From the NCBI GenBank assembly GCA_037043455.1, contig JAWPHD010010227.1, positions 31,877 through 95,876 on the forward strand: a stretch of 64,000 bases of DNA, written 5' to 3'. Under the pieces are notes generated by a model. The model made no database searches. It had not been told where the DNA came from and saw nothing but the letters and a program-made list of their open reading frames with translations. This document shows, one piece after another, positions 2,806 through 64,000 of this stretch (position 1 is its first letter; the number at the start of each line of letters is the position of its first letter). This DNA comes from Cyrtodaria siliqua (taxonomy: Eukaryota; Mollusca; Bivalvia; Adapedonta; Hiatellidae). A program made the translations under genes and the position numbers.

Positions 2806-3590
2806 ACTAGTATATGAAAGACTGCGCAGGTCTTCTGCGACAAGGGCTATCACAACCTGACTTCTATGATGATGTGATTTATAAACTTCGTAAGATTCTT
2901 GGTCATGATCACTTTCATACTATCTTTGTTAAACTAGTTCAAAAGTTTATCAAAAGAGGTTATGACCCTATCATTTTGCAATGTACTGCATGCTTGGTGG
3001 TGGACCCTTTTACAGTTCGCCACTATGCTTTCCTCTTTAATTGTACGATGACCGGACAGGCTATAGACCCTATGATGGCGCCTACCTAAAGCCCAATGGG
3101 TCGGTGGCGTTTGATGTTTGTCTATGATCTTTCTTGTCGTGCCCTTAATGGTTTATCCTCTTGTTGCTCTGGCTTCTGCCAAGTCATTGAGTACCTTCAT
3201 TGTGTCTTTCTAGGCTATTGTTTTTTGTATTATATTTACTCGAGCATATTTGTGTTTTACTTATATTGCCTATTGATGCTGCCTTGTTGGTTCGAGTTTA
3301 GATCATGGCGGGGATTTCTTTATTTACACTGTCCTGTTTTAATGGGATGACAGTAGGGTAAGTGTGAGGTTAAGTGCACCCTAGAACCGGTTTAAACCCC
3401 CAGTGGCCTACTTTATCACTGACCGTTCCAAGGCGGTAGCCCTATTGTCAACCCTTTTGTGTTTGTGATGTCGTTTGCATTGAACATTACTTTTGCCTTC
3501 TTGTTTGTCTGTTTGCGTGTTTGTTTCTGTGTTTTGTGGTTGACTGTCCTCCTTGGATGCTACTTTCGATGTCCGATCTTTTTATATTTC
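2806..3590 (+). pseudogene. RT-element 3' fragment, copy A
   Basis: A 91-codon frame (2814-3089) encodes the C-terminal module shared by several copies in the window: LSQPDFYDDVIYKLRKIL, then KRGYDPIILQ, DPFTVRHYAFLFNC and a terminal MMAPT before the stop. The untranslated tail after it is also shared: GTGCACCC, GGTTTAAACCCCCAGTGGCC, ACTGACCGTTCCAAGGCGGTAG, and an end near CTGTCC. I recall this module from bivalve predicted proteins, downstream of a reverse transcriptase. The N-terminal RT is missing here, so the copy is 5'-truncated and dead. The retroelement class is uncertain. Confidence 0.65.
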
Positions 3591-7864: not shown

Positions 7865-8062
7865 CTATGTACTGGAAGATACGATAGGCCGTGATGTAAC
7901 CTAGCCATAATTTATCTCCTCCATTTATGTCTAGTTCCGATATGTTGACATTAACAGTGTTTCCTGAATTTGCATACTCGATGTCTGGATTAGCCAGTGT
8001 ACAGCTGGAGTTCGCTTCTTGCCACGTTGTGCTGGACTCATTTACATGATACACAATTTCAC
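7865..8062 (-). CDS. C-type-lectin-like extracellular exon (phase 1-1)
   Basis: On the minus strand an acceptor (TTTTCTAATTACAG) is followed by 198 nt of open frame and a good donor (ACATAG|GTAAGA). Both boundaries are phase 1, the usual state for shuffled extracellular modules. The translation has W-x-x-A-x-x-x-C near its start (TWQEANSSC), several N-glycosylation sequons (NES, NSS, NIS) and a closing LWLGYITAYRIFQYIG. It resembles the exon at 45181-45489 in order of landmarks (W..A...C, then W, then a (Y/F)-x-Y-(I/T)-G end). I call it C-type-lectin-like by pattern only. The frame runs upstream into the satellite because monomers there are 72 bp; that part is not a protein repeat. It is probably one exon of a second receptor gene whose other exons are not recognised. 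Confidence 0.5.
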
Positions 8063-11000
8063 CTGTAATTAGAAAATATGCAACGAGTGCGTAAAGTTCC
8101 CTTGTTATGACACTTATATCATGCACCATTTCAACTGTGAATAGAAAATATGCAACGAGTGTGTAAAGTTCCCTTGTTATGACACTTACACCATACACAA
8201 TTTCACATGTAATTAGCAAATATGCAACGAGTCCGTAAAGTTCCCTTGTTATGACACTTACACCATACACAATTTCACATGTAATTAGCAAATATACAAC
8301 GAGTCCGTAAAGTTCCCTTGTTATGACACTTACACCATCTACAATTTCACATGTGATTAGAAAATATGCAACGAGTGCGTAAAGTTCCCTTGTTATGACA
8401 CTTATATAATGCACCATTTCAACTGCAATTAGAAAATATGCAACGAGTGCGTAAAGTTCCCTTGTTATGACACTTACACCATACACAATTTCACATGTAA
8501 TTAGCAAATATGCAACGAGTCCGTAAAGTTCCCTTGTTATGACACTTACACCATACACAATTTCACATGTAATTAGCAAATATGCAACGAGTGTGTGTAA
8601 AGTTCCCTTGTTATGACACTTATATAAAGCACCATTTCAACTGTAATTAAGAAATATGCAACGAATGTATGTAAAGTTCCCTTGATATGACACTTACATA
8701 AACACCATTTAGACAGTAATTTGGAATATCCAAATTAAGTGTGTAAAGTTCGCTATGACACTTACACAATACTCCATTTAAACAGTAATTAAGGAATATC
8801 CAAAGAATGTGTGTAAAATTCGCTATGACAATTACATAATATACCATTTCAACTGTAATTAGGTAATATTCAAAGAATGTGTGTAAAATTCCCTTGTTAT
8901 GACACTTACATATTACACCATTTCAACTGTACTAAGGAAATATCCAAATATTGTGTGTAAAGTTCCCTTGTTATGACATTAACATAATACACCATTTCAA
9001 CTGTAATTAGGACATATCCAAAGAATGTGTGTACAATTCGCTATGACACTTACAAATACACCATTTAAACAGTAAATAGGAAATATTCAAATTATGTGTG
9101 TAAAGTTCGTTGGTTATGACACTTACAGAACACACCATTTCAGCTGTAATTAGGAAATATACAAAGATTGTGTGTAAAGTTCCCTTGTTATGACATTTAC
9201 ATAGCACACCATTTCAACTGTAATTAGGAAATATTCAACGAATGTATGTAAAGTTCCCTTGTTATGACAGTTACATAATACACCATTTCAACTGTAATTA
9301 GGACATATCCAAATTATGTGTGTAAAGTTCCCTTGTTATGACCCTTACATATTTTACCATTTCAACTGTTATAATCAAATATGCAACGAGTGTGTGTAAA
9401 GTTCCCTTGTTATGACATTGGATAATACACCATTTTAACTGTAATTAGGAAATATCCAAAGAATATGTATAAAATACCCGTGTTATGACAGTTACATAAT
9501 ACACCATTTAAACTGTAATTAGGAAATGTCCAAAGAATATGTATAAAGTACCCGTGTTATGACAGTTACATAATCCACCATTGCAACTGTAATTAGGAAA
9601 TATGCAACGAATTTGTGAATAGTTCCCTTTTTATGACACTTGCATAAAGCACCATGTCAACAGTAATAAGGAAATATCCAAAGAATATATTTAAAGTTCC
9701 CTTGTTATGACACTTGAATAATATACCATTTGAACTGTAATTAGGAAATATGCAACGATTGTGAGTAAAGTTCAATTGTTATGACACTTACGAAATACAC
9801 CATTTCAACTGTAATTAGGAAAGATGCAACAAGTGTGTGTAAAGTTCCCACGTCATGACACTTAAATAATACACCATTTCAACTGTAATTAGGAAATATT
9901 CAATGAATGTGTGTAACGTTTCCGCGTTATGACAGTTACATAATACATCATTACAACTGTTATTAGGAAATATCCAAAGAATGTGGGTAAAGTTCTCTTG
10001 TGTAAGTGTCATTATGTAGTTCCCTTGTTATGACACTTACATAATGCATCATTTCAACTTGAATTATGAAATATCCAAATTGCCTGTGTAATGTTCCTTT
10101 TTTAGGACACTTAAATAATACACCATTTCAGCTGTAATTAGGAAATATCCAAATATTGTGTGAAAAGTTCCCTTGTTATGACACTTACATAATACACCAT
10201 TTCAACTGTAATAACAACATATCCAAATCATGTTTGTAAAGTTCCCTTTTTATGACACTAATACCATTTCAACTGTAATTTGGAAATGTCCAAAGAATGT
10301 GTGTAAAGTTCGCTATGACACTTACAAAATACACCATTTAAAAAGTAATTAGAAAATATGCAAATTATGTGTGTAAAGTTCGTTGGTTATGACACTTACA
10401 TAACAAATTATTTCAACTGTAATTAGGAAATATGCAAAGAGTGTGTGTAAAGTTCCCTTGTTATGACACTTACATTATATAAAGAGTAATTAGGAAATAT
10501 CCAAAGAATGTTTGTAAAGTTCGCTATGACACTTACAAAATACACCATTTAAACAGTAATTAGGAAATGTCCAAATTATGTGTGTAAAAGTGTTCGTTGG
10601 TTATGACACTTACATAACAAATTATTTCAATTGTAATTAGGAAATATGCAAAGAGTGTGTGTAAAGTTCCATTGTTATGACACTTAAGTTGCTTTCATAA
10701 GGAACATTTAATTTGGTGCAGATGTATCTCCTTAATATTGTAATATTCAATTTTCTTTATTGCTTAATGCTTTCTGCTGTAATTAGGAAATATGCAAAGA
10801 GTGTGTGTAAAGTTCCCTTGTTATGACACTTACATAACACAACACTTCAACTGTATAAACCATAATACACCATTTAATCGTGTATATATGTTGAAATATC
10901 CAAACAGTGTGTAAAAAATTCCCTTCTTATGATACTTACATAGCACACCATATCAACTGTAACTAAGAAATATTCAACGAATGTGTGTAAAGTTCCCTAT

Positions 11001-12495
11001 TTATGACACTTACATAATACACCATTTCAACTGTAATTACGAAATGTCCAAAATATGTGTGTAAAGTTCGCTATGACACTTACAAAATACAACTTTTAAA
11101 CTGTAATTAGAACATATATCCACATTATTTGTATAAAGTTCGTTGGTTATGACACTTACATAACACACCATTTCAACTGTAATAAGGAAATATGCAGTGA
11201 GTGTTTGTAAAGTTCCCTTGTAATGACACTTACATTATACACCATTTCAATAGTAATTAGGAAAATATCCAAAACAGTAGTAATTAGGAAATATCCAAAC
11301 AGCGTGTGAAAAGTTCCCTTGTTATGATACTAACATAGCACATCATTTCAAATGTAATTAGGAAATATTCAAATTATGTGTGTAAAGTTCCCTTGTTATG
11401 ACACTTACATAATACATCATTTCAGCTGTAATTAAGAAATATTCAAAGAATGTGTGTAAAGTTCGTTGGTTATGACACTTACATAAGACACCATTTCAAC
11501 TGTTATTAGGAAATATTCAACGAATGTGTGTAAAGTTCGTTGGTTATGACACTTACATAAGACACCATTTCAACTGTAATTAGGAAATATTCAACGAATG
11601 TGTGTAAAGTTTGTTGGTTATGACACTTACATAAGACACCATTTCAACTGTAATTAGGAAATATCCAAATTATGTGTGTAAAGTTCCCTTGTTATGACAC
11701 TTATATAATACACCATTTCAACTGTAATTAGGAAATATCTAAATAATGTGTGTAAAGTTCCCTTGTTATGACACTTATATAATACACCATTTCGACTGTA
11801 ATTAGGAAATATCCAAAGAATGTGTGTAAAGTTCCCTTGTTATGACAGTTACATAATACACCATTTCAACTGTAATTAGGAAAGATGCAACGGGTGTGTG
11901 TAAAGTTCCCTTGTCATAACACTTACATAATACACCATTTCAACTGTAGTTAGGAAATATCCAAATTATGTGTGTAAAGTTCCCTTGTTATGACACTTAT
12001 ATAATTCACCATTTCAACTGTAATTAGGAAATATCTAAAGAATGTGTGTAAAGTTCCCTTGTTATGACACTTATATATACACCATTTCGACTGTAATTAG
12101 GAAATATCCAAAGAATGTGTGTAAAGTTCCCTTGTTATGACAGTTACATAATACACCATTTCAACTGTAATTAGGAAAGATGCAACGGGTGTGTGTAAAG
12201 TTCCCTTGTCATAACACTTACATAATACACCATTTCAACTGTAGTTAGGAAATATCCAAATTATGTGTGTAAAGTTCCCTTGTTATGACACTTATATAAT
12301 TCACCATTTCAACTGTAATTAGGAAATATCTAAAGAATGTGTGTAAAGTTCCCTTGTTATGACACTTATATATACACCATTTCGACTGTAATTAGGAAAT
12401 ATCCAAAGAATGTGTGTAAAGTTCCCTTGTTATGACAGTTACATAAAACACCATTTCAACTGTAATTAAGAAATATGCATCGAGTGTGTGTAAAG
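8063..12495 (-). repeat. ~74-bp satellite, about 60 monomers
   Basis: Tandem monomers of 72-74 bp recur with few breaks; one ~95-bp interruption lies at about 10690-10780. On the minus strand each monomer reads CCTAATTACAG, then TTGAAATGGTGTATTAT, then GTAAGTGTCATAACAAGGG and so on. It therefore carries an acceptor-like and a donor-like splice signal 17 nt apart. Near the exon at 7865-8062 the monomers are exactly 72 bp and make a long minus-strand frame with a 24-residue repeat. Distal monomers (after about 11590) are more uniform and organised in blocks of four. Confidence 0.9.
11884..12472. repeat. Higher-order repeat of 295 bp (four monomers)
   Basis: The marker GATGCAACGGGTG occurs at 11884 and again at 12179. 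The whole run of four distinct monomers between them is repeated nearly letter for letter, including the variants ATAATTCACC and TATATACACC. This shows recent block amplification at the end of the array away from the exon. Confidence 0.8.
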
Positions 12496-12745
12496 TTCCC
12501 TTGTCTAGATTATCTGCACATTCTCTTAACATACAAACTGGACGGTATGCAAGAAATCGCATACCGAGAAATGAACGATATTGTTTATGTTGTTACTCAC
12601 AAGATCTGGAAGACGAATACCATTTTATATGTGTGTGTCAATGTTACAATGAACTAAGAAAAAAAATATATTAAAGACATTTTCTATAGTTTTTTCTGCA
12701 TAACATATTTTCTTTAAACTTTTTGTACAGTAAGTCTGTTATATA

Positions 12746-12888
12746 TGTCACAGGACTAGAAAAATGTGCAGCCAGACCGGGGCTCGAACCCGGGACCTTC
12801 GGACTACCGTTCCGATGCTCTACCGACTGAGCTAACCGGCCAGACAATGCAACATCAATCTACCTGTTAGATATCCATAACCGTGACA
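12746..12888 (-). repeat. TRIM LTR (3' LTR in minus orientation)
   Basis: 143 bp, begins TGTCAC and ends GTGACA, so both termini are 5'-TG...CA-3' with a short inverted repeat. It includes the tRNA-like unit and a T5 run. Confidence 0.85.
12770..12841 (-). tRNA. tRNA-like sequence inside TRIM LTR
   Basis: 72 nt fold as a cloverleaf. The acceptor has 6 of 7 pairs, two of them G-U. The D arm contains box A (TAGCTCAGTCGG). The anticodon stem TCGGA/TCCGA encloses loop ACGGTAG, and the T arm CCGGG/CCCGG encloses TTCGAGC with box B. The triplet at the anticodon position is GGT (nominally Thr), but position 33 is C instead of the near-universal T, and eukaryotes rarely use a GGT tRNA. A TTTTT run at 12760-12764 follows within 10 nt on the transcribed strand. 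I read it as a Pol III promoter unit derived from a tRNA, not a translating tRNA. Confidence 0.7.
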
Positions 12889-12900
12889 CACTCCCCCTAC
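12889..12900 (-). promoter_or_regulatory. TRIM polypurine tract
   Basis: GTAGGGGGAGTG directly before the downstream LTR. The preceding CGAGGACGAATTTCAGTCTG resembles the 3' region of Ty3/gypsy elements, suggesting the parent family. Confidence 0.75.
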
Positions 12901-12976
12901 AGACTGAAATTCGTCCTCGAATTTCGATGGGTACAGAGAATCATTTCTAATGTTTCTCGAAGTTTACTCAGTCACG

Positions 12977-12994
12977 GTCCCCCGTTGGGCGCCA
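12977..12994 (-). promoter_or_regulatory. TRIM primer-binding site
   Basis: TGGCGCCCAACGGGGGAC begins 2 nt inside the upstream LTR. TGG is the complement of a tRNA CCA end. The GGCGCCCAAC core is shared by many animal LTR elements (recalled). Confidence 0.75.
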
Positions 12995-12996
12995 AA

Positions 12997-13139
12997 TGTC
13001 ACAGGACTAGAAAAATGTGCAGCCAGACCGGGGCTCGAACCCGGGACCTTCGGACTACCGTTCCGATGCTCTACCGACTGAGCTAACCGGCCAGACAATG
13101 CAACATCAATCTACCTGTTAGATATCCATAACCGTGACA
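12997..13139 (-). repeat. TRIM LTR (5' LTR in minus orientation)
   Basis: By reading, the same sequence as the other LTR across all 143 positions, which implies a recent insertion or recent gene conversion. Confidence 0.85.
13021..13092 (-). tRNA. tRNA-like sequence inside TRIM LTR (second copy)
   Basis: Identical by reading to the unit at 12770-12841, with the same box A, box B, anticodon loop and downstream T5 run (13011-13015). It lies in the upstream LTR in transcription order, so Pol III transcription starting here would stop inside that LTR unless the terminator is read through. Confidence 0.7.
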
Positions 13140-14110
13140 TATATATAGACAGAAAAGGCAAAAATAATGGTAGGTCACCATGATTGTTAACATTTTAAAA
13201 AATAATTTGTAATGCCACCGTCATGTCAATCAGTCCAAAAAGTTGAACAAGTCCATGAAATAGCTAAATAAGACATTTTTGAAGTCTAATCATTTATTCA
13301 TTGGTCACAATTCTGCTAAAAATGTATTAAAGTAAAGAACATTTAATTACAATAACATTTAAAGCTCATCTTTATGTAAAACCTATATTTTTTACAAAAT
13401 CTGTTGAGACCATTACCACAATTTATGCACTAATTAGCCCATAATGATACAATTTCCTTTTTTTTTGTATGTTCCCAATAATAGAATTTGTTTAAACTTT
13501 CTAAGCACATAGTTTAACATATATAAAAACAAAATATGCAATAAAAATGATAGGTCCCCATGCTTGTTTAGATTTTTTTTTGAAATCCTACCCCTATGCT
13601 AAAAGGCCAAGTTTTGTATGAAATTATATAGAAATGGCATAGTTTCCTTTTTTGTTATGTTCCTAATAACAGAATTTGTTCAAACTTCCTAGGCACTTAT
13701 TTGAACATATATTTTCTAAATATATGTTCAAATAAGTGCCTAGGAAATTTGATCAAATTAAATTTATAGGTCACCATGCATATTGAGATTTAATATCATG
13801 AGTATTGGTTTTTGGAACCGTGCCATTATGCTTTTTTTTAATTTGTTCGAATTTTTACAACATGCTATATTTTTCCTATTTTATGTATCTAATAATAGGC
13901 CTTTATTTAAATAACGAAAATAAAAAAAGAAAATTCAAAAAAAAAAAATTCAAAAAAAAAAAAGACAAAAAATACAACTAGACATCGAAAGCAACATTCC
14001 TGTAAATTTGTAGGAAAATCCTTCTAATAGTTTTAGAAGAGAAGTCGCCCAAAGAAGTTGCGCATGGAAAACTACCGAAATTGCCTTTAAAAGATATTAC
14101 CACCAGTTCT
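13140..14110. other. Diverged dispersed repeats, no gene
   Basis: The word TAGGTC(A/C)CCATG occurs near 13170, 13552 and 13768. The phrase AATTTGTT(C/T)AAACTT(C/T)CTA(A/G)GCAC occurs near 13487 and 13675. These are old copies of one repeat. A-rich runs lie at 13915-13970. No coding frame is present. Confidence 0.5.
13682..13750. repeat. 33-bp-arm hairpin with 3-nt loop
   Basis: Arms 13682-13714 and 13718-13750 are complementary at 32 of 33 positions around the loop TCT. The arms include CCTAGGCACTTATTTGAACA. It could be a recent fold-back duplication or extrude as a cruciform; nothing shows it is transcribed. Confidence 0.85.
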
Positions 14111-14119
14111 GTTCTGTTA

Positions 14120-14612
14120 TTGTTATGACACTTACATAATACACCATTTGAACTGTAATTAGGAAATGAGTAAAGTTCAATTGTTATAACACTTATAATA
14201 CACCATTTTACCTGTTATTAGAGAAAATATGTAACGAGTGTGTAAAAGATTCCCTTATCATGACACTTACACAATGCACCATTTCTCCTGTAATTAGCAA
14301 ATATGCAACGATTGTGTGAAAGTTCCCTTGTTATGACATTTATATAATACACCATTGCACCTATAAGTAGCAAATATGCAAAAGGTGTGTGAAACGTTAC
14401 CATGCCAAGACAAAAGCATAACACACCATTTGACCTGTAATTAGCAGATATGCAACGAGTGTGTGTAAAGTTCCCTTGTTATGACACTTACATAATACAC
14501 CATTTCAACTGTAATTAGGAAATATGCATCGAGTGTATGAAAAGTGCCCTTGTCGTGAATCTTAGTGATACATAGTACACTATTTCACCTGTAATTAGCA
14601 AATTTGCAACGA
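14120..14612 (-). repeat. ~74-bp satellite, second block
   Basis: About six monomers of the 8.1-12.5 kb satellite, more diverged, separated from the main block by the TRIM and unrelated sequence. The orientation is the same. Confidence 0.8.
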
Positions 14613-15098
14613 GTGCAAATTTTCTCTTGCCATGATGCTTTATTTAATGTAATGTTAAGGCCTATTCGTACGTTAGAATTCATCTTTTTGCGTTTGACAT
14701 GTTGTCATTTTGTTATTTCTCTTTGTTGTTCTGTCGTCTTTTTGCTATTTTTATCATGCATTAATCAAACAGCTGTGTTCATAACAGAGGAACCAGACAC
14801 CATTTGTTATTAAGGAACTATAATTGAGTTAGGACATAATTATTGTAAGCTGTAAAATCTATAGTTAACAGTTGTAGCTCATGAATACCACAAAGTTCAC
14901 ATACCTGAGGTTAATGATGGCAGAAGACAATGCCCAAACATACTAACACAGGTGGCCATCAGCGTTATATAAACTGAATCCATTTTTAAAGAACAAATGA
15001 AAAAAAATCCACTACATCTGAACTACATCTGAATACAATACGGTAGGTTTGAGATGGTGTTTTAAATGCCTGTTAAAACTGGTTGCTACCGATACTAT
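14613..15098. other. Non-coding, nothing recognised
   Basis: No coding frame, repeat or RNA gene was identified. Confidence 0.4.
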
Positions 15099-24534: not shown

Positions 24535-26081
24535 TGTCACAGGATGACCTTAGTGGTATGGCTAACTCAGGAAAGAATCAATGACGGTGAATGCATTTAC
24601 ATAAATTTAATGCAACTTTTAAAATATGTTTAATATATATACAATTATCTAAAAAAACAAGCGAATACACAAATGAACTATGAAAAGAATGTTCTCCTGA
24701 ACGTTTAAGACGTTCTTAGTATTGTTATAAATACTGAATGTCTAAGACACTAAAGTGTTGTTAAAGCTATAACAATGTTGATCTAGCGCGATAACTGTGA
24801 TGCGCGAGAGCTCATGAAGACGATGATGCGCGAATTCAATGGATGATTGTCATCAAATGCCTTCTGTAAGGGTTGATGACGCGATGCAATGATAGTTAAT
24901 CTCCACTGAGATTGTGAATGATATTCCTCCAGTGAGGACTGGTAACGGGCCCACCTTGTGTCCCGGGGGTTGTCGTTAGTAAAACCTGGCTGCGCAGGTA
25001 CGGGGACCGTCTCCACCGCTTGTAACGTTAGTCGTGGAAGCTTAGCTCCACTCCTGGATATCCAAACCTAGATGGCTTACTCCAACCCTGGATGGCTTAT
25101 ATCCTGGATGGCTTAGGCTGTAATTATACATACGTTTTAGATGTCGGTTGACAAACATAACAATCTTGCATAATTATCATTACCCAAACAAATCATTATT
25201 CAATCAATATATGTAAGCTGTACTAATGATTAGTAGCAATGTATACATATTCTACAACGCCATGTATACGCTATGTACGTCGCTGTTAATCAATGCCCTT
25301 AATACATGTAATATAAACATGATCAAATTACTCATATATTACACTCACTGAGTTATGCATGCACGCATTTATTCTTGTCACTCATCTCATTGTTAACTAA
25401 TGTTGACAATCGTGTATTACAATCACCGAGTTATACGCCAACGTTAACTAATGCACCTAATATCCACTGTTATCAAATTAATATTGTTTTACAATTAATG
25501 ATCAATTACCATAATTACATCTAATAAAGTCACTTCAAATCATATGCTAGTCTAAAGTTATGTTTGAGAAACATCAATGCTAACCGGATGTCGTAACCGT
25601 CAAACAAGATGGCGCCGCCCACTGAATACAAATATACGATAAAAGTTTAATAAAACTACTAACCACATGTTGCCTGTGAAATTTGCCGTCCAATCTCTGT
25701 TCCTACAAAGTACTATCGATGATCCCGGCGATAGCTAGAAGACAATGGGTTTTATAGCAAACATTACGCCCAAATCATTATTTGCCCCGTTCAGTCCGTG
25801 ACAAACGTGGCTAAATCTACAGTATTGAATCTACACGCGAGGCCCTTATACAATTTTGCCGTTTAAGGAAAATATACCTATACGTTTACATGCATTAGCA
25901 CAAAACTAAACTTATGACACGGCCTCTCTGGCGGCCACTTAAAATGTGCACGCTTTTACGTGTTACATGAATAGATCATGAATATTGTGAAATTGTTTCA
26001 ACTCGAACAATAGATTTTGGGTGTAACCGATAACAAGAGCTATATACGACCAGTACGCTCTACCCGTGACATTTTGTGACA
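24535..26081 (-). repeat. LTR (3' LTR in minus orientation)
   Basis: 1547 bp, TGTCACAGGATG...TTTTGTGACA, with termini TG...CA. A 77-codon frame (24783-25016, minus) is identical in both LTRs but has no recognisable features. Confidence 0.85.
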
Positions 26082-26096
26082 ACATCTCCCCACTTA
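26082..26096 (-). promoter_or_regulatory. Polypurine tract of the LTR element
   Basis: On the minus strand AAGTGGGGAGATGT abuts the downstream LTR, the expected place for plus-strand DNA priming. Confidence 0.65.
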
Positions 26097-26419
26097 AAGA
26101 AAGTGCTACACTTTTAAAATTCAACAAAATGATAATTAATATTTACACGTTAAGAAACTATTAATTCTTCTGAGCAAATGAGCGACAAAACGTAGAAGCT
26201 GATCGCTCAATCGCTTGAGTATGTTAACTATTACTACTGAGGGATGCAACCTTCAGCCAGTACAACGACCGTCTTCCGGAAAACATCCACTGCAGTTATA
26301 ACCTGACTATAATATGTAATTACAATTTCAACACTATTCTACAATTGTACACTACCCTGTCGTAACATATACTATTATTGTACAATACACTGCAATACAC
26401 TATTGAATTAAACCGGTCA

Positions 26420-29400
26420 TTATGTGCGGCGACTTAAATAGTCTGCCCCAATATTGTCCTTTCCACGGTCTATTACACCGACTCTACTGTTGCTAATAAC
26501 ACTACTTCCTGCCACTACCAGAACTCCAACTTTACACATTGCATCCATCGCATTACCAGTATACTGTTTGCGAAATGGAGTAGGGTCTCTCGTTTCCCTA
26601 ATCGGCTTTGCTAAAGTGTGCTTAAAGCTACACTGCACTACATCTGTTGGTCTCGACTTATCGGACCGAACAGTATTACACTCAGAGTCTAAACGACTTA
26701 CCTCTCGTTTCTCTGCTACACTAAGCATGCCCAATATGTCTACATCGGCTGCTGTTTCCTTACCTACACTAGTGGGAGAATATGTGGGACTAGTGTCCTC
26801 ACTACTGTCTTCCTCACTATCCTCAATAACTGCAACATTAACTACATTTAATACCCCTTGTTGCACATTATCGGTTCTACTGATATACTCTTTCAGCATA
26901 TTCGCATGAAAGGTCTTTAACTTTCCGTTTATCTCGATACGGTAATCCATAGTGTTCACTATCCCTCTAACGTAAAACGGACCTTTCCATTGTAATAACA
27001 ACTTGTTATTGTCGGTCGGGAGTAACAGTAACACCTGGTCATCTATCTTAAACTTCCTAGCTCTAGCTTTCTGGTCATAGTACCGTTTATACTTGGTACT
27101 TGCCTTAACTAACTGACTTTGAGCTATCTTACAAGTCTCCTCTAGTTTCTCCTTCAGATCTAAAACATACTGATATGTAGTCTTAACCTCATCACTATCT
27201 ACTTCACCTGCCCACATCTCTCTAAGAATCCTCATGGGACCTCTAACTGACCTACCGTACAATAACTCAAACGGAGAAAATCCTAAACTCTCTTGTGGAA
27301 CCTCTCTAAATGCAAACAATAAAGCATTGAGATACTTGTCCCAATCTTTGGGTCTCTCGGTACACATACGCCGTAACATTTGCTTTAACGTCCCGTTAAA
27401 TCGTTCGACTAACCCGTTACACATAGGGTGATATGGTGTTGTCATGATTTGACGCAAAGACAATAACCTGCTTACTTCAGCCATAAGTTCTGACGTAAAC
27501 TGTGACCCACAATCAGTCAGCATTTCCTCTGGTACACCTAGCCTACTGAACATATCAACTAATGCCTCAGCTACTCTCTCAGTTTCAATTGAGGGCAATG
27601 CTACTGCCTCCGGATACCTAGTTGCATAGTCTACCATGGTTAAAATGTACCTATTTTTCCTATCCGACACTGGAAAAATTGGTCCAACTATGTCTACGGC
27701 TACCCGCTTAAATGGTGTATCTATCAGTGGCATCTGACCTAAATGTACTTTGGTCACTCGACCTTTTGGTACTGTCCTTTGGCATACATCGCAGGACCTA
27801 CAATACCTAGTTACATCTCCACTAACGCCTGGCCAATAAAATTCTGCCAATACTCTATCTGACGTTTTCTTTACGCCTAAATGACCTCCCATAATCGACT
27901 CATGAGCTACCTTAAGCACTGTCGTTCTATACTGGGTAGGTACCACTAATTGGTGAAACTGTCTACTACCACTATCTTCAAATTCTCTGTACAATAACCT
28001 ATTCTTATGTACAAACTTACAACTACCGGACCCTTTACACTTCTTCACTACACCATCCTTGGCCTTCACTTTACAAGGACCTAATGACTCGTCTTGAGTT
28101 TGTGCTTCTATAAACTCCGCTTTAGATATGTCACCTACGGCTGCAGGAACCTTTAATTTTCTATAAGCCTGAGCTTGCTTCTGAACCTGCGCTCTAGTCT
28201 CTACGGCATTACTTATGCTACTTCTAAAATCGGACATTACCGGAAGTGCTGAACCATTTATGTTCCCTATCGTTAAATCATACATCGGGTCATCCATACA
28301 TAGTGCCTCTGTAGTCCCTTTAAAGAAAGGTGTATCTACATCTATTCTCGCTATTGGCACGTGCTCTACCGACTTATTTAGCAACATACACGGTGACTGT
28401 TTACCTACCAACTGGTCATCCGTAACTAAACTACGCCTAACTACCACACCTGTACAACCTGTATCCCTCATTACAATTACGTCCGTGCCATTCACTCTAC
28501 CATCTGCCGTTGGAAGATTTGCATACGGAAAGAGACATGTTCCGATCTTCGTCATTACACCATCCGCTTTTACACAACAGCTACTACTCTCGGTTTTAAT
28601 AACCGGACTATTACTACCTCTGCCTCTACCTCTACCTCGGTTTTGACCACCTCTACCTCTACCGAAATTCCATGGGTTGTTAAAACCTTGGTTCGGACTA
28701 CCTACATGGTTGTCCCCTCTACTATTGTCACTAAAATTGTCTACGACAGCGGACACTTTCACCGCTTTCCTACACTCATGTGAAGCATGATTTCCATTAC
28801 AGTGACGACAACGAATAAAAGGTCTACCTATGTTACCACTATTGCTACCTCCTCTAGAACCCATCGAACTACCTCCACCTCTATAGTTTCCACTCTGGCC
28901 TTTCTGTTTATGATCGTCCCCTTGCCTATCTCTAAAAGTTCTGTCTTTCGACACTACATTATGAGCTCCACCTCTAGCCTCGGCAAACTGATCTGCTTGT
29001 GTTGCCATTTCTCCTACACTAGTAAGTTTTCTTTCTTTAAGAAATAAGAACAGATCTCTACTACAAACATTGAATAGCTGGTCACGCAACAAGAAATCTA
29101 TGAGGCCCTGATAAGTCTGCGCTACTTTCCCTAACTCTAACCACCTATCTAAGTAATTTCTAGATCTACTAATAAACTGAATAAATGACTCGCCTTTCTC
29201 AGGCAGACAAGCTCTAAACCGCTTTCTAAAACCTTCTTCAGTTAACTCAAATCTCTTTAAAAGCGCATCCTTTAACTTGTCATAGTCAAGAGCATCTACA
29301 CTAGGTAATCTAGAAAATACATCTAAGGCCTTGCCTCTCAATAACGCACTTAAATGAACTGCCCACTTATCTTTGGTCCATTCCTGTAACTCAGCATAAC

Positions 29401-29980
29401 GCTCGAACCGTAACAAGTAACTGTCCATGTTATCTTTGTCAGCATCAAAGTATGGTAACTTCGAACCTTTTACCTTCCCAGAATAACTATCTTTCCCTTC
29501 AGTTTTACTTTCCTTACTATGTGTCTTAGCTGCTTCCAACTCTAAAGCTAACTTATGATCAAACTCTTTTTGCTCCCTTTCCATTATCATCTTAGCCTTA
29601 GCTAGTCTACCATCTGTTTCGAACCTCTCATGTTCTAACTCTTGCTTCTCCCTTACTATTCTGCTTTCATCATCTCGCGTCTCTTTAGCTAACCTGCCTT
29701 CTAATTCTAGCTTCTCTTTATCAGCATCTAGCTTCTCTTTAGCTAATCTACTTTCTAATTCTAGCTTCTCTGTGGCTAGTCTACTTTCTTCATCTCGCTT
29801 CTCTTTAGCTAACCTACTTTCAAATTCTAGCCTATCTTTCTCTAATTCTCTTTCCTTAAGTCTAAATTCCCTTTCCCTAGCCTGTTCGTCTTTAACAAAG
29901 GTTCTAAGCTCCTCTCCAGCATACCCTAACTCCTTACCCATTTCCGTAAGATCCTTTATGGACGTCATGGTTATAGACAT
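26420..29980 (-). CDS. Gag-protease-integrase polyprotein (RT core missing)
   Basis: The frame is 1186 codons. Residues ~30-160 are a highly charged coiled coil of EKLELESRLAKEK-type repeats. Residues ~170-340 are gag (KLPYFDADKDNMDSYLLRFERY). A zinc knuckle lies at 391-403 with spacing C-x2-C-x3-H-x4-C, one residue shorter than usual between C and H. An RG-rich stretch follows. The protease has D506-T-G. The integrase zinc domain uses H693, H700, C730 and C733, with catalytic D763, D823 and E859 (35 residues between the last two). A GPF module lies at ~1000-1002. Residues ~1085-1139 resemble the start of an RT (PTDVVQCSFKHTLAKPIR...TPFRKQ). The end (GKDNIGADYLSRRT) resembles the end of RNase H. 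No YxDD box exists. In standard Ty3/gypsy pol, RT precedes integrase. RT/RH scraps after integrase indicate the Gmr1-type order with an in-frame internal deletion. Confidence 0.85.
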   Translation of the reverse strand: MSITMTSIKDLTEMGKELGYAGEELRTFVKDEQAREREFRLKERELEKDRLEFESRLAKEKRDEESRLATEKLELESRLAKEKLDADKEKLELEGRLAKETRDDESRIVREKQELEHERFETDGRLAKAKMIMEREQKEFDHKLALELEAAKTHSKESKTEGKDSYSGKVKGSKLPYFDADKDNMDSYLLRFERYAELQEWTKDKWAVHLSALLRGKALDVFSRLPSVDALDYDKLKDALLKRFELTEEGFRKRFRACLPEKGESFIQFISRSRNYLDRWLELGKVAQTYQGLIDFLLRDQLFNVCSRDLFLFLKERKLTSVGEMATQADQFAEARGGAHNVVSKDRTFRDRQGDDHKQKGQSGNYRGGGSSMGSRGGSNSGNIGRPFIRCRHCNGNHASHECRKAVKVSAVVDNFSDNSRGDNHVGSPNQGFNNPWNFGRGRGGQNRGRGRGRGSNSPVIKTESSSCCVKADGVMTKIGTCLFPYANLPTADGRVNGTDVIVMRDTGCTGVVVRRSLVTDDQLVGKQSPCMLLNKSVEHVPIARIDVDTPFFKGTTEALCMDDPMYDLTIGNINGSALPVMSDFRSSISNAVETRAQVQKQAQAYRKLKVPAAVGDISKAEFIEAQTQDESLGPCKVKAKDGVVKKCKGSGSCKFVHKNRLLYREFEDSGSRQFHQLVVPTQYRTTVLKVAHESIMGGHLGVKKTSDRVLAEFYWPGVSGDVTRYCRSCDVCQRTVPKGRVTKVHLGQMPLIDTPFKRVAVDIVGPIFPVSDRKNRYILTMVDYATRYPEAVALPSIETERVAEALVDMFSRLGVPEEMLTDCGSQFTSELMAEVSRLLSLRQIMTTPYHPMCNGLVERFNGTLKQMLRRMCTERPKDWDKYLNALLFAFREVPQESLGFSPFELLYGRSVRGPMRILREMWAGEVDSDEVKTTYQYVLDLKEKLEETCKIAQSQLVKASTKYKRYYDQKARARKFKIDDQVLLLLPTDNNKLLLQWKGPFYVRGIVNTMDYRIEINGKLKTFHANMLKEYISRTDNVQQGVLNVVNVAVIEDSEEDSSEDTSPTYSPTSVGKETAADVDILGMLSVAEKREVSRLDSECNTVRSDKSRPTDVVQCSFKHTLAKPIRETRDPTPFRKQYTGNAMDAMCKVGVLVVAGSSVISNSRVGVIDRGKDNIGADYLSRRT

Positions 29981-30625
29981 TGTGAACTACACACTACAAT
30001 AATTACAATACACACGTCACTAATAATTCTACTCAACTAACTACTAATGGTAAGTCACTGTGTCCTCAGTAAATACCTGGGCATCATCATAGGACAAGGT
30101 ACATACACATTTGTACTAGCGCTAACTCCTAACGGTTATGTATAGATAGTATCTAGCTTCCACACAACATATACACTACATAAAATATCTATATTTGATA
30201 TTGGACATAACCTTAAACAATCATCGAAATGTGTATAACATGTACATGTATATTTACTTCTCCCATCAATATAAGTATACTCGAGTGTCACAACATGAGT
30301 AGAACGTCTTGTTCGCCAACCTAATTGGATACTATGTGTATATCAAGGGAGGTAAAACAAACACCCAAATTATTGAGCAAAAGTGCCTCAGACCCACTCG
30401 TGTAGACCACTGCGACCTCGCGCCAAGGAAAGAACGGACAAAACAACAGTTTGGACTCACCCTACCCTTGTCGTGTCTTGACTTGTCTTCCAAGCTGTGG
30501 CCGTGATCGTCGACAGTCGCCTTGATGGATCAGAGGGTGGTACACAATTCTAAAATAATAAGTAGAGATTTAGTATATCATAATAAAGATCACTTATTGA
30601 TTCTTTCCCTCCGTAGTCGCCCAGA
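29981..30625 (-). other. 5' untranslated leader of the LTR element
   Basis: ~645 bp between primer-binding site and gag start, AT-rich, with no conserved frame. The gag ATG at 29980 is followed by another at residue 5. Confidence 0.6.
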
Positions 30626-30643
30626 ATCCCACTTCTGACACCA
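30626..30643 (-). promoter_or_regulatory. Primer-binding site, tRNA-Leu type
   Basis: On the minus strand TGGTGTCAGAAGTGGGAT starts 2 nt after the LTR. It is complementary to a tRNA 3' end of the form ATCCCACTTCTGACACCA, which I recall as a tRNA-Leu ending. Confidence 0.75.
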
Positions 30644-30645
30644 GT

Positions 30646-32192
30646 TGTCACAGGATGACCTTAGTGGTATGGCTAACTCAGGAAAGAATCAATGACGGTG
30701 AATGCATTTACATAAATTTAATGCAACTTTTAAAATATGTTTAATATATATACAATTATCTAAAAAAACAAGCGAATACACAAATGAACTATGAAAAGAA
30801 TGTTCTCCTGAACGTTTAAGACGTTCTTAGTATTGTTATAAATACTGAATGTCTAAGACACTAAAGTGTTGTTAAAGCTATAACAATGTTGATCTAGCGC
30901 GATAACTGTGATGCGCGAGAGCTCATGAAGACGATGATGCGCGAATTCAATGGATGATTGTCATCAAATGCCTTCTGTAAGGGTTGATGACGCGATGCAA
31001 TGATAGTTAATCTCCACTGAGATTGTGAATGATATTCCTCCAGTGAGGACTGGTAACGGGCCCACCTTGTGTCCCGGGGGTTGTCGTTAGTAAAACCTGG
31101 CTGCGCAGGTACGGGGACCGTCTCCACCGCTTGTAACGTTAGTCGTGGAAGCTTAGCTCCACTCCTGGATATCCAAACCTAGATGGCTTACTCCAACCCT
31201 GGATGGCTTATATCCTGGATGGCTTAGGCTGTAATTATACATACGTTTTAGATGTCGGTTGACAAACATAACAATCTTGCATAATTATCATTACCCAAAC
31301 AAATCATTATTCAATCAATATATGTAAGCTGTACTAATGATTAGTAGCAATGTATACATATTCTACAACGCCATGTATACGCTATGTACGTCGCTGTTAA
31401 TCAATGCCCTTAATACATGTAATATAAACATGATCAAATTACTCATATATTACACTCACTGAGTTATGCATGCACGCATTTATTCTTGTCACTCATCTCA
31501 TTGTTAACTAATGTTGACAATCGTGTATTACAATCACCGAGTTATACGCCAACGTTAACTAATGCACCTAATATCCACTGTTATCAAATTAATATTGTTT
31601 TACAATTAATGATCAATTACCATAATTACATCTAATAAAGTCACTTCAAATCATATGCTAGTCTAAAGTTATGTTTGAGAAACATCAATGCTAACCGGAT
31701 GTCGTAACCGTCAAACAAGATGGCGCCGCCCACTGAATACAAATATACGATAAAAGTTTAATAAAACTACTAACCACATGTTGCCTGTGAAATTTGCCGT
31801 CCAATCTCTGTTCCTACAAAGTACTATCGATGATCCCGGCGATAGCTAGAAGACAATGGGTTTTATAGCAAACATTACGCCCAAATCATTATTTGCCCCG
31901 TTCAGTCCGTGACAAACGTGGCTAAATCTACAGTATTGAATCTACACGCGAGGCCCTTATACAATTTTGCCGTTTAAGGAAAATATACCTATACGTTTAC
32001 ATGCATTAGCACAAAACTAAACTTATGACACGGCCTCTCTGGCGGCCACTTAAAATGTGCACGCTTTTACGTGTTACATGAATAGATCATGAATATTGTG
32101 AAATTGTTTCAACTCGAACAATAGATTTTGGGTGTAACCGATAACAAGAGCTATATACGACCAGTACGCTCTACCCGTGACATTTTGTGACA
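30646..32192 (-). repeat. LTR (5' LTR in minus orientation)
   Basis: Same length and, as read, the same sequence as the LTR at 24535-26081. Confidence 0.85.
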
Positions 32193-32400
32193 ACACCCCC
32201 AGCGGCCGTTTTTGCCACTGACCATTCCAAGGAGGTAACATATTGTCAACCATTGTGTGTTTGTGATGTCGTATCTTGCTTTTTAATCATCTTTATAGTT
32301 GTTTGTTTCTGTGTGTGTTTGTGGCTGACTGTTGTCCTTGAATTCTACTTTTCCTGTTCGATTTGTATATCTCCTTTAACGATAATACAATTTCGCAAAG
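32193..32400 (+). repeat. RT-element tail, copy E (right part)
   Basis: The host copy resumes with CCCCCAGCGGCC, ACTGACCATTCCAAGGAGGTAA, TTGTGGCTGACTGT and CCTGTTCGATTTGTATATC, the same tail as in copies A and B. Confidence 0.65.
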
Positions 32401-41708: not shown

Positions 41709-44009
41709 CACACCCGATTACCGGCAGCCGTAGGCACAGTTCGGCAGCCGTAGGCACAGTTCCCGGTAAAAAATACAAGTTTCAAAAGGGTAAATAAATC
41801 TAGTTTTATGACTTGTTAGCCTTAAACTATTAAAAAGGTGAATCGGCCATTTTAATTTGGAAGGAATATTGTGTATGTCACCTGATTTCCTTGAAATTTG
41901 AACCTATATTATGCGAGTTACGGTAGGTTAAATGTTGAAATTAAGCTAAAAATGTGATTGTAGAAAGTTAGAGACCTGGTACTCGGTAAATAGTGAAGTT
42001 TGAGAGATTTCAGACTTACTGCCATAACATATAATCTTTCCTGAATAAACAGTCCAAAGTTTAGCCCACAGAACATTTTATTAATAATTGTGGGTTTTTA
42101 AACACGACCGGGTATTGAAAAATGGCAGGAGTACGGTACAGTTCCATTATTTATTGCAGGTAGCTAGTACAGTTCCGAAAAATGGCAGGCGTATGGTACA
42201 GTTCCAAAAACATCGGACGCTAGTCTTTTCTCATTTGGTTTAGTGGTGTAATTTCGAAAACACTAATGAAGAAGTACTGTATATAGAATTATATACATCT
42301 TCGGTCCTTCCATAAACGTTTAAGAAAACCCACCAACCGTAGGGAAACGTGAATATAGGCTCGCTTGAACCTTCATTCCGACGGTACAGTACAGAGAAAG
42401 ACACGTTTTAATAACAATCGTATGTTGTGCTGAGTTACGTCCCCTTTTTATAATTCACCATTTATGATAACAGGCGTTTGGTATTTAGATGTTTTGGAAT
42501 AGATTGCTTAATTTTAATTATTGCATAGTTGAACACATCACATTAATTACGTTTCAAGGCCACTCTATGTAACTTAATGTATCTGAATCAAACGTCTACT
42601 GATATATTGGACACGCATATAAATCAATAATGTAGTCGCTCAAAAGTGTACTTAACTCAAAAAGTAATAATCATAGGACACTATTTAAAGTGTGTATCAA
42701 ATTGTAACGGATATAGCGCAGATACCCACGAAATTTCAAAGTTGATACATGCAGACATTTAAACTTTTTTGCTTTGGTGAGACGAAATACTAGTACATGT
42801 CTATTGTCTAAATAAAAGTTTAGTGTCTGAATTTCCCAAAAATATCCTCATCGCAAAATCAGAATATCTATCATAAAGGTGCGACCACTTTAAGTGTATC
42901 TAATTAGCTTACATTTTAGCTTAAACACGCTACTTAGGCAAACTTTAAATGGTCATAATTAAATGCCACATAATCTCATTTGGTTAATGATGACATTTTT
43001 GTAAAGCCCTGTTATTGCTCTTTAAGTAAGCATAAAGTGTATTTTGCGTTACCATGGGTATCTTTTGAGCGACTACAGTATTGGTTTATATGCGTGTCCT
43101 ATATATCAGTAGACGTTTGATTCAGATACATTAAGTTACATAGAGTGGCCTTAAAACGTAATTAATGTGATGTGTTCAACCATGCAATAATTATAATTAA
43201 GCAATCTATTCCAAAACATCTAAATACCAAACGCCTGTTATCATAATAATGGTGAATTATAAAAAGGGGAAGTAACTCAGCACAACATACTATTGTTATT
43301 AAAACGTGTCTTTCTCTGTACTGTACCGTCAGAACGAAGGTTCAAACGAGCCTATATTCACGTTTCCCTACGGTTGGTGGGTTTTCTTAAACGTTTATGG
43401 AAAGACCGAAGATGTATATAATTCTATATACTGTACTTCTTCATTAGTGTTTTCGAAATTACACCACTATAGCAAAGGAGAAAATACTTTAGCGTCCGAT
43501 GTTTTTGGAACTGTACCATACGCCTGCCATTTTTCGGAACTGTACTAGCTACCTGCCAATAAATAATGGAACTGTACCGTACTCCTGCCATTTTTCAATA
43601 CCCGGTCGTGTTTAAAAACCCACAATTATTTTAATAACATGTTCTGTGGGCTAAACTTTGGACTGTTTATTCAGGAAAGATTATATTTTATGGCAGTATG
43701 TCTGAAATCTCTTAAACTTCACTATTTACCGAGTACCAGGTCTCTAACTGTCTACAATCACATATTTTAGCTTAATTTCAACATTTAACCTACCGTAACT
43801 CGCATAATATAGATTCAAATTTCACGGGAATCAGGTGACATACACAACATTCCTTCCAAATTAAAATGGCCGATTCACTTTTCTAATAGTTTAAGGCTAA
43901 CAAGTCATAAAACTAGATTTATTTACCCTTTTGAAACTTGTATTTTTTTTACCGGGAACTGTGCCTACGGCTGCCGAACTGTGCCTACGGCTGCCGGTAA
44001 TCGGGTGTG
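41709..44009. mobile_element. 2.3-kb element with ~940-bp inverted arms
   Basis: The ends are CACACCCGATTACCGG and its complement, with AATCA on both sides (41704-41708 and 44010-44014), a 5-bp target-site duplication. The left arm runs 41709-42646 and the right 43062-44009, matching in reverse complement throughout with a few changes. A 415-bp unique centre has no coding frame. Each arm starts with two copies of a ~20-bp CGGCAGCCGTAGGCACAGTT unit and carries three GGTACAGTTCC-like motifs ~400 bp in. The 80-codon frame at 43306-43548 lies within an arm and is not a gene. A CAC start and a 5-bp duplication recall Transib, and long arms recall fold-back elements; the class is open. Confidence 0.85.
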
Positions 44010-56705: not shown

Positions 56706-57862
56706 GGCTCCCCCACACAAAGTGTGGAGGGGAGCCATATTGATTTTGTGCTGTCTGTCTGTGTCACAAACGATGTCCGATCAATAACTAGAGAATGGTT
56801 GGACCTATGGTCCTCAAATTTAGAAGGATGGTTGATCATGACTATTAGATGACCCCTATTGATTTTGGGGTCACTAGGTCAAAGGTCAAGGTCGCGGTGA
56901 CATTGACTATCAAAAAGATTCCGATCAATAACTAGAGAATGGTTTGACCTAGGGTCTTCAGACTTGAAAGGATGGTTGGTCATGACCAGTACATGACCCC
57001 TATTGATTTTGAGGTCACTTAGTCAAAGGTCAAGGTCGCGGTGACATTGACTGAAAACTATATCCGATCAATAACTACACAATGGTTGGACCTGGGGTCC
57101 TCAAACTTGGAAGGATGGTTGGTCATGACCAGTAGATGACCCCTATTGATTTTGGGGTCACTAGGTTTAAGGTCAAGGTCGCAGTGACATTGACTATCAA
57201 AACGATATCCGATCAATAACTACACAATGGTTAGACCTAGGGTCCTCAAACTTGGAAGGATGCTTGGTCATGACCAGTAGATGACCCCTATTGATTTTGA
57301 ATTCGCTAGGTAAAGGTCAACATCGTGTGACATTGACTATCAAATCGATGTTCACTAGGTCAAAGGTCAAGATCGCGGTGACATTGACTATCAATCGATG
57401 TCTGATCAATAACTAGAGAATGGTTGGACCTAGGGTTCTCAAACTTGTAAGGATGGTTGGTCATGACCAGCAGATGACCCCTTTTGATTTTGGGGTCACT
57501 AGGTCAAAGGTCAAGCTAGCGACGACATTGACTATCAAAGCGATGTCCGATCAATAATAACTAGAGAATGGTTGGACCTAGGGTCCTCAAACTTGCAAGG
57601 ATGGTTGGTCATGACCAGAACATGACCCCTATTGATATCAAAACGATCCCCGATCAATAACAAAACAATGTCCAATCAATAACTAGAGAATGGTTGGACC
57701 TAGGGTCCGCAAACTTGGAAGGATGGTTGACCAATAAATATTACTGATACAGGTTGCAGATACAGTCACAGGGATATTGAATATCAAAACGATCTCAGAT
57801 CAATGAGAACGGTTGGACCTAGAGTCGTCAATTATGTCTGTTCGGGCGAGTGGGGAGCCATA
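56706..57862. repeat. ~143-bp tandem repeat array
   Basis: Monomers contain GATCAATAACTA(G/C)A(G/C)AATGGTTGGACCT, GGATGGTTGGTCATGACCAG, TGACCCCTATTGATTTTG and GGTCAAAGGTCAAGGTCGCGGTGACATTGACTATC. Monomer starts are about 143 bp apart near 56812, 56956, 57099 and 57242, then less regular. The array begins with a GGCTCCCCCACACAAAGTGTGG word and ends at GGGGAGCCATACG, so it may be the body of an inserted element. Confidence 0.85.
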
Positions 57863-63800: not shown

Positions 63801-64000
63801 GGTGTCACCAGGTCAAAGGTTACATCCGGGCTAACATTGACTATCCAAACGGTGTCCGATCAATAACTACAGAATGGTTGGCAGAAGGGTACCCAAACTT
63901 AGAGGGATGGTTGCTCATGACCAGTGGATGGCCCTTATTGATTTTGGGGTCACTAGGTCAAAGGTCAAGGTCGTGTTGACATTAACTATCGAAACGATGT
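57541..64000. repeat. 2681-bp macrosatellite, 2.4 copies, cut by window end
   Basis: Unit 1 starts near 57541, unit 2 near 60222 and unit 3 near 62903. Matching landmarks are 2681-2682 bp apart (for example 58051, 60732, 63414). The copies differ by only a few substitutions and short indels. Each unit contains 143-bp-type monomers, then four ~320-bp subrepeats, then 143-bp-type monomers again. Frames of 60-77 codons are copied in each unit but lack any sign of selection visible here. Confidence 0.9.
58889..59975. repeat. ~320-bp subrepeats inside the macrosatellite
   Basis: The landmark CATGA(A/G)ACTTCACA occurs at 58889, 59211, 59531 and 59851 (spacing 322, 320, 320). Each subrepeat also has CAAAATTTCAG(G/A)TCGGCC, AAGATGGCCGC, GTAGCGACTACTTCTTGAAA and GCCATCTTTGTTTACATAG. 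The set recurs in unit 2 from about 61570. Confidence 0.85.

Follow-up and report, generated by a model that had tools for sequence, protein, structure and literature searches.

We identified in the bivalve Cyrtodaria siliqua a miniature LTR retrotransposon whose two identical LTRs each carry a tRNA-like unit with Pol III-type signals. It lies in contig JAWPHD010010227.1 of assembly GCA_037043455.1, within the 64,000-nucleotide stretch of DNA that was analysed (positions 31,877 to 95,876, hereafter the window). We are highly confident that it is a TRIM of the Helenus type (TRIMp3), i.e., a non-autonomous LTR retrotransposon that codes for no protein and is mobilized in trans by the machinery of LTR elements, with steps that would depend on Pol III. 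The preliminary description of this DNA had read it as a TRIM with an internal Pol III-type unit, an animal counterpart of the plant Cassandra elements, and had asked whether such animal elements were already described. The LTR landmarks, the tRNA-type unit and the genomic copies support this reading, and the kind is already known from the description of Helenus (Kojima 2024, PMC10886601), which nearly every feature compared fits. New to the Helenus record are the heterodont (Adapedonta) host, sister families with tRNA-Lys- and tRNA-Pro-type primer sites, and a chimeric locus, L112, in which the TRIM is joined to another LTR element.

Read on its sense strand, which is the minus strand of the window, the element at 12746–13139 is complete and measures 143 + 108 + 143 = 394 bp (Table 1). 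The two LTRs are 100% identical; repeat finding gives 144 bp for the pair, as one extra flanking base matches too. Both LTRs open with TGTCACGG and close with CCTGTGACA, the primer-binding site (PBS) TGGCGCCCAACGGGGGAC begins two bases inward of the LTR, and the interior (12889–12996) terminates in the polypurine tract GTAGGGGGAGTG immediately before the second LTR. We take the PBS to be of the tRNA-Lys type from its likeness to the 3' end of tRNA-Lys(CTT); a version with the exact Lys-type sequence was found at 91 genomic places. The flanks match over the 4 bp TATA, and 6 bp match as well. An ORF scan of 12746–13139 found no ORF of at least 120 aa. The ends, PBS, polypurine tract and matching flanks around a 108-bp interior that had been noted before are thus confirmed in the sequence.

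Table 1. Features of the miniature LTR element and its flanks, in window positions
Feature	Position	Strand	Evidence
5' LTR, 143 bp, TGTCACGG...CCTGTGACA	12997..13139	-	Identical direct repeat; 212 near-full-length LTR copies in 96 loci
tRNA-like unit in 5' LTR, 72 nt cloverleaf, anticodon-position GGT, C not U at 33	13021..13092	-	ARAGORN; Rfam RF00005, 52.5 bits; pairs
Box A TAGCTCAGTCGG in 5' LTR	13074..13085	-	Sequence
Box B GGTTCGAGCCC in 5' LTR	13031..13041	-	Sequence
T5 run in 5' LTR, candidate Pol III terminator	13011..13015	-	Sole run of at least four T in the unit; such a run kept in 188/212 LTR copies
Primer-binding site, tRNA-Lys type	12977..12994	-	16/18 matches to the 3' end of tRNA-Lys(CTT), with no break in the first 12
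Palindrome TTCGAGGACGAA upstream of polypurine tract	12910..12921	-	Similar block in second (tRNA-Pro-type) family
Polypurine tract GTAGGGGGAGTG	12889..12900	-	Sequence
3' LTR, 143 bp	12746..12888	-	Identical direct repeat
tRNA-like unit in 3' LTR	12770..12841	-	ARAGORN; Rfam
T5 run in 3' LTR, putative 3' end of the expected run-through RNA	12760..12764	-	Sequence
Target-site duplication TATA, left in window orientation	12742..12745	.	Flank match
Target-site duplication TATA, right in window orientation	13140..13143	.	Flank match

The window also contains other repeats. A 74-bp satellite lies on either side of the TRIM, some distance away (8042–12504 and 14172–14615). Inverted repeats at 41709–44009, which measure about 940 bp and are 96% alike, are likely a DNA transposon or fold-back element, and the end of the window (57352–64000) consists of large tandem units of about 2.68 kb, 95–98% alike, each with a tRNA-like stretch (57967, 60648 and 63330) that reaches 41.8 Rfam bits. 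A SECIS_1 match at 3064–3124, barely above its gathering score and inside a repeat that recurs near 47.2–47.9 kb, is probably due to chance.

The tRNA-like unit was recognized in both LTRs, on the sense strand, by the Rfam tRNA model (E 2e-8) and likewise by ARAGORN, in agreement with the earlier observation that the identical LTRs each hold a complete unit with box A, box B, a cloverleaf and a T5 run. In LTR positions, box A lies at nt 55–66, box B at nt 99–109 and T5 at nt 125–129. ARAGORN called the unit tRNA-Thr (GGT); its anticodon loop reads ACGGTAG in 194 of 212 LTR copies, and the acceptor stem contains a T-T mismatch. The minimum-energy fold given by RNAfold differs from the cloverleaf (z -1.06). 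The T5 is the sole run of four or more T in each unit of LTR plus interior. Because zero or one such run was common in simulations with the element's own composition (3851/5000; with the flank composition it was rare, 594/5000), the single T5 is no more than consistent with transcription by Pol III. Conservation of the signals, for which a test had been proposed, was weak among the 212 LTR copies and is not counted as proof: boxes A and B are slightly better kept within the family (1.3% and 1.6% substitutions) than U3 (3.3%), and T5 varied at 2.5%. In a genome-wide Rfam tRNA search, with 63 of 313115 candidates scored, the eight best-scoring loci inspected (L138–L145) were slightly differing tRNA-Met(CAT)-like copies, perhaps the heads of a SINE family.

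The assembly in which copies were searched comprises 2.88 Gb in 26948 contigs. At least three loci, the window locus included, were 100% identical over all 394 bp (63 matches listed; 40 of 1567 candidates scored), and the exact 20-base LTR/PBS junction occurred 399 times, with no occurrence of the reversed control. We examined 40 loci around the best matches (39 plus the window) and 60 more, chosen close to listing order among the first 100 junction places listed. The 74 junctions in these 60 loci all adjoin TRIM sequence on one side or both: in 59 the LTR precedes and the interior follows, and 15, truncated or rearranged, did not reach the score limit on one of their sides. One of the 15, L112, continues into gag-protease sequence. 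The forms found were elements with two LTRs and chains of three or of seven, the latter at L013 and L017.

The insertions carry the mark of LTR-type integration. After exclusion of chains without intact ends, a 4-bp duplication was found in 33 of 58 chains vs 89 of 3306 mismatched flank pairs (chance 2.7%), with 0/3 among single LTRs, 25/43 among pairs, 6/10 among triples and 2/2 among seven-LTR chains; the first count, over 40 loci, had given 22/32, with 8 loci excluded for partial ends. Since 8 of the 12 chains with at least three LTRs sit within one 4-bp duplication, the chains may have arisen by recombination after insertion. When the flanks of the 33 duplicated insertions were joined, 9 had a junction-spanning match elsewhere in the fetched DNA. 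Several of these paralogous empty sites were gap-free and others had gaps; that of the L025 insertion lies gap-free in the window at 1514–1666 (153 nt, 95.4%), and the seven-LTR chain L013 has a gap-free match to its own satellite.

In a sample of two-LTR elements biased toward good matches, 11 of 43 had identical LTRs, and LTR divergence had a median of 2.1% and a maximum of 11.8%. The recent activity that the preliminary description had deduced from identical LTRs is therefore borne out by these elements and by at least two other loci identical over the whole 394 bp. A genome search for LTR pairs and solo LTRs had also been suggested: 43 intact-ended pairs were recovered, and no clean solo LTR was found among the chains scored, the single-LTR chains (L099, L064 and L111) being broken elements without a 4-bp duplication. 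A unique locus or an assembly artefact does not agree with 399 exact junctions and many copies at independent sites, nor does a plain tandem array without LTR ends and empty sites agree with copies that have such ends, lie between target duplications and have paralogous empty sites. We conclude that this is a real mobile family, neither chance nor assembly error, and that the TRIM is inserted as LTR elements are. The LTR/PBS junction pattern had no match in collections of viral contigs and genome contigs; in a phage collection, at least 20 of the 31 matching records matched over the tRNA part.

The chimeric locus L112 provides a clue to the partner of the TRIM. On its sense strand (minus), 367 nt of another element ending in ...CATGGTTACA AA are followed by TGGCGCCCAACG, the TRIM interior, a TRIM LTR, TT and TGGCGCCCAACGGG, downstream of which a reading frame resembles the end of a gag (arginine-glycine rich) and a protease. 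The first part, including the 12-base PBS, matched L148 at 98.2% over 380 nt, where the leader proper to that element comes after a PBS at position 858. The last part agreed at 38/38 overlapping bases with the gag in L147, a neighbouring stretch of the L148 contig. The L147 gag frame matched Pfam PNMA with 37.9 bits (cut-off 25), and the protease match of the partner candidate stayed under the Pfam cut-off (20.3 vs 24.3). PNMA-type gags derive from Gypsy. Because a 580-base gag-protease piece had at least 40 matches at 98–100% (best 40 of 180 candidates scored), the PNMA-gag element must have multiplied recently.

L112 points to this PNMA-gag LTR element with a Lys-type site as the partner of the TRIM, through template switching, a candidacy that is drawn from one chimeric locus. 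In the simplest reading, the template would have been switched twice among RNAs packaged together in a particle. The left joint lies within the 12 bases common to both PBSs, and the right joint shares two or three G. As the TRIM part runs from interior through a whole LTR to the PBS, its template would have been a multi-unit RNA from a tandem array. The LTR of the PNMA-gag element ends in TTACA, not GTGACA, and its site is 3/18 off tRNA-Lys. In the comparison of the PBS region with autonomous Gypsy elements, L148 shares 12 PBS bases, and the candidate is known from its LTR/PBS and gag-protease parts; L118 has the exact 18-base Lys-type site and an LTR that also ends in TTACA.

A DNA rearrangement could also have given rise to L112. 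That the locus arose by such a chance event, and that a different element whose site is of the Lys type, e.g., the one at L118, is the true partner, is a serious possibility to which we give slightly less than an even chance. The single locus and the exact site of L118 speak for it, as does an open frame at L118 that, judged by eye on a sequence motif, resembles the start of a Gypsy reverse transcriptase. On the other hand, Pfam yields for L118 a borderline Spuma_A9PTase match only, and the left joint of L112 falls exactly where a template switch in one particle predicts. Because of L112, we regard L148/L147 as the better partner candidate.

Another LTR element in the window (24535–32201, minus strand) has 1558-bp LTRs that are 99.9% identical. 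Its 1186-aa ORF (26420–29980) contains an integrase and a SCAN-like stretch (below cut-off), and no Pfam match to reverse transcriptase or RNase H was found in this ORF at E 0.001. We rejected it as a partner since its PBS differs; only the end CCTGTGACA and a TGTCACGG near the start are shared.

A second family was detected as tandem units of about 272 bp, built on the same plan, next to first-family copies at L104, L106, L109, L110 and L114. Its junction occurred 332 times in the genome (control 0), and its PBS, TGGGGGCTCGTCCGGGA, is presumably of the tRNA-Pro type. The LTR is also 143 bp long; its box A lies at 55 and its box B at 99, followed by a T6 run at 124. U3 differs between the families, which have in common the positions of the boxes and of the T run (124–125) and a similar block before the polypurine tract. 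ARAGORN called Thr(GGT) for this unit too, and 48 of the 72 positions in the tRNA-like unit are alike between the families. The first family forms 20 of the 21 pairs of the cloverleaf and the second forms all of them, although paired columns are less alike between families (25/42) than unpaired ones (23/30), and all seven pairs changed on both sides still pair in both families.

This pairing raises the question whether the cloverleaf, beyond the boxes, is under selection. Cleavage by RNase P and RNase Z beside the tRNA-like part may trim the run-through RNA, so that the genomic RNA would extend from about nt 120 to T5 with a very short R, as in Cassandra, the RNA of which starts in the 5S of the 5' LTR, ends in the 5S of the 3' LTR and has an 18-bp end repeat (PMC10886601). 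We consider such selection unlikely, even with the pairing counts in its favour and an odd loop with C33 and GGT that is common to both families and argues for a shared ancestor. Units derived from two different tRNA genes or SINEs would pair without selection, and two separate captures of paired tRNAs would give equal pairing counts. Moreover, the stems appear unconstrained within the first family, in which they vary slightly more than the loops (2.3% vs 1.6%) and 108 of 149 changed pair cells are broken, and the minimum-energy fold of its unit is not the cloverleaf.

For the transcription of the TRIM we propose a scheme inferred from these signals. Recruited by the two boxes of the 5' LTR, Pol III would start near LTR nt 48, sometimes pass the first T5 and halt at the T5 of the 3' LTR, giving a run-through RNA of about 333 nt with about 82 nt in common at both ends. 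U3 would correspond to nt 1–47, R to nt 48–129 and U5 to nt 130–143. The Pol III unit itself would then be the R region and supply the repeat for strand transfer, which would make a Pol III start within the LTR, a puzzle in the preliminary description, compatible with the replication cycle. Read-through must be assumed, since Pol III is expected to terminate at the first T5, ahead of the interior; a stop there would yield a short tRNA-like RNA. First-strand synthesis would be primed by tRNA-Lys, probably in particles of the PNMA-gag element represented in L112, and the integrase of that element would insert the copy with a 4-bp duplication.

Also unlikely is that the TRIM is transcribed by Pol II and that its LTR merely holds a captured, inactive tRNA or SINE fragment. 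The expected stop at the first T5 would agree with this, as would a unit that is without U33 and whose best fold is not a cloverleaf, and Pol III activity is deduced from sequence motifs. However, two families with differing U3 have kept box A, box B and the T run in place, the TATAWA and AWTAAA motifs are absent from the LTRs of both, and the doubly changed pairs have retained their pairing (7/7).

Two other readings have hardly any standing. The SINE-like tRNA head and the seven-LTR tandem forms bring to mind a SINE with such a head, or a simple tandem repeat that includes a tRNA, in place of an LTR element; this is highly improbable in view of the LTR ends, PBS, polypurine tract, 4-bp duplications (also around most chains of at least three LTRs) and paralogous empty sites. 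U33 is considered universal in tRNAs, and eukaryotic Thr tRNAs are not known to use the anticodon GGT; the unit has neither U33 nor a used anticodon, as a functional tRNA gene would (C33, GGT). Functional tRNA-Thr genes spread by duplication are thus equally improbable, despite the ARAGORN call, given this loop, the acceptor-stem mismatch and the spread as LTR elements.

Beyond the Pol III scheme favoured here, a more extended model is conceivable, in which we place little confidence. The Pol III RNA of the TRIM, including multi-unit RNA from tandem arrays, would be packaged by the PNMA-gag LTR element and recombine at the common PBS. Multi-unit RNA is invoked because the interior-LTR-PBS arrangement of L112 goes beyond a single-unit RNA starting in R. 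The cloverleaf would be a working part of the RNA, kept by compensatory change across the switch between Lys and Pro, with host tRNA-processing enzymes perhaps setting the RNA ends, and the elements would predate or have crossed the split between pteriomorphians and heterodonts.

Compared with the published description of Helenus, rather than with family consensus sequences, the likeness is close. Helenus elements are TRIMs with a tRNA-like sequence, including boxes A and B, in each LTR, a PBS and a polypurine tract, and 4-bp target duplications in animals (PMC10886601); absence of coding capacity, a tRNA unit with both boxes in the LTRs, PBS, polypurine tract and 4-bp duplications were all found here. 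In bivalve Helenus families the primer is tRNA-Lys, His, Ile, Pro, Glu or Ser, seven of the families can encode tRNA-Thr, and tandem arrays were noted for the family LTR-11_DR (PMC10886601), while primer sites of the tRNA-Lys and tRNA-Pro types, Thr-type units and tandem arrays occur in C. siliqua too. An active Pol III promoter in Helenus was expected and unvalidated in the same study. What differs is the host, here an adapedontan heterodont, and the chimera with a PNMA gag. The COX1 sequence of the assembly (L146, its single match) agrees with this host placement: among the 120 matches listed of 7999 scored, Panopea was nearest (82%), ahead of Novaculina, Ensis and Solen (75–76%), and Panopea, Ensis and Novaculina belong to Adapedonta in the superorder Imparidentia. 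Molluscan Helenus elements were listed only from Pteriomorphia, in five orders (Table 1 of PMC10886601), and the words Heterodonta, Imparidentia, Venerida and Ruditapes are absent from the main text of that paper. In the open-licence literature, as far as its text was accessible, no further reports of Helenus- or TRIMp3-like elements were found beyond PMC10886601 and one meeting report.

Other TRIMs are more distant. With Cassandra the element shares promoter and terminator signals of the Pol III type within its LTR, and tandem LTR-interior arrays (PMC10886601 and the accessible part of PMC7215508, which also describes multi-element transcripts reading through intervening LTRs). Cassandra, however, occurs in plants, carries 5S rRNA and has demonstrated transcription, whereas the present element holds a tRNA unit whose use by Pol III is read from its motifs; at Rfam gathering scores, no 5S rRNA was found in its LTRs, the match being to tRNA. 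Ajax of nemerteans is likewise a TRIM with a small-RNA promoter in the LTR but has a partial 5S rRNA, 5-bp duplications and a tRNA-Leu primer (PMC10886601). The biv-TRIM family is known from bivalves, heterodonts included, as tandem arrays and solo repeats; according to the accessible text of PMC6934838, its repeats are 202–218 bp long, the polypurine tract is GGGGAGA in most, and a clear PBS is lacking. The conserved TGATCCCAAAGGAC of biv-TRIM occurs neither in the present element nor in the 100 loci scanned, and membership is ruled out by this absence, the 143-bp LTR and the polypurine tract GTAGGGGGAGTG.

Overall, the idea of Helenus/TRIMp3 gains independent support from raw sequence, and its reported host range is widened from Pteriomorphia to heterodont bivalves. 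A heterodont host bears on the dating of Helenus to the ancestor of Pteriomorphia (PMC10886601), as it would imply an older origin, independent origins or horizontal transfer. For animals, Gypsy had been proposed as the Helenus partner from PBS similarity only (PMC10886601), and L112 now points to a specific candidate for the partner, one that has amplified recently. In annotation, abundant tRNA look-alikes of this kind raise the apparent number of tRNA genes. The two families, which share an LTR plan and differ in their primers, also form a good pair for testing Pol III as the source of the R region of an LTR element in animals, and the same pair suits the question of why the cloverleaf stems still pair.
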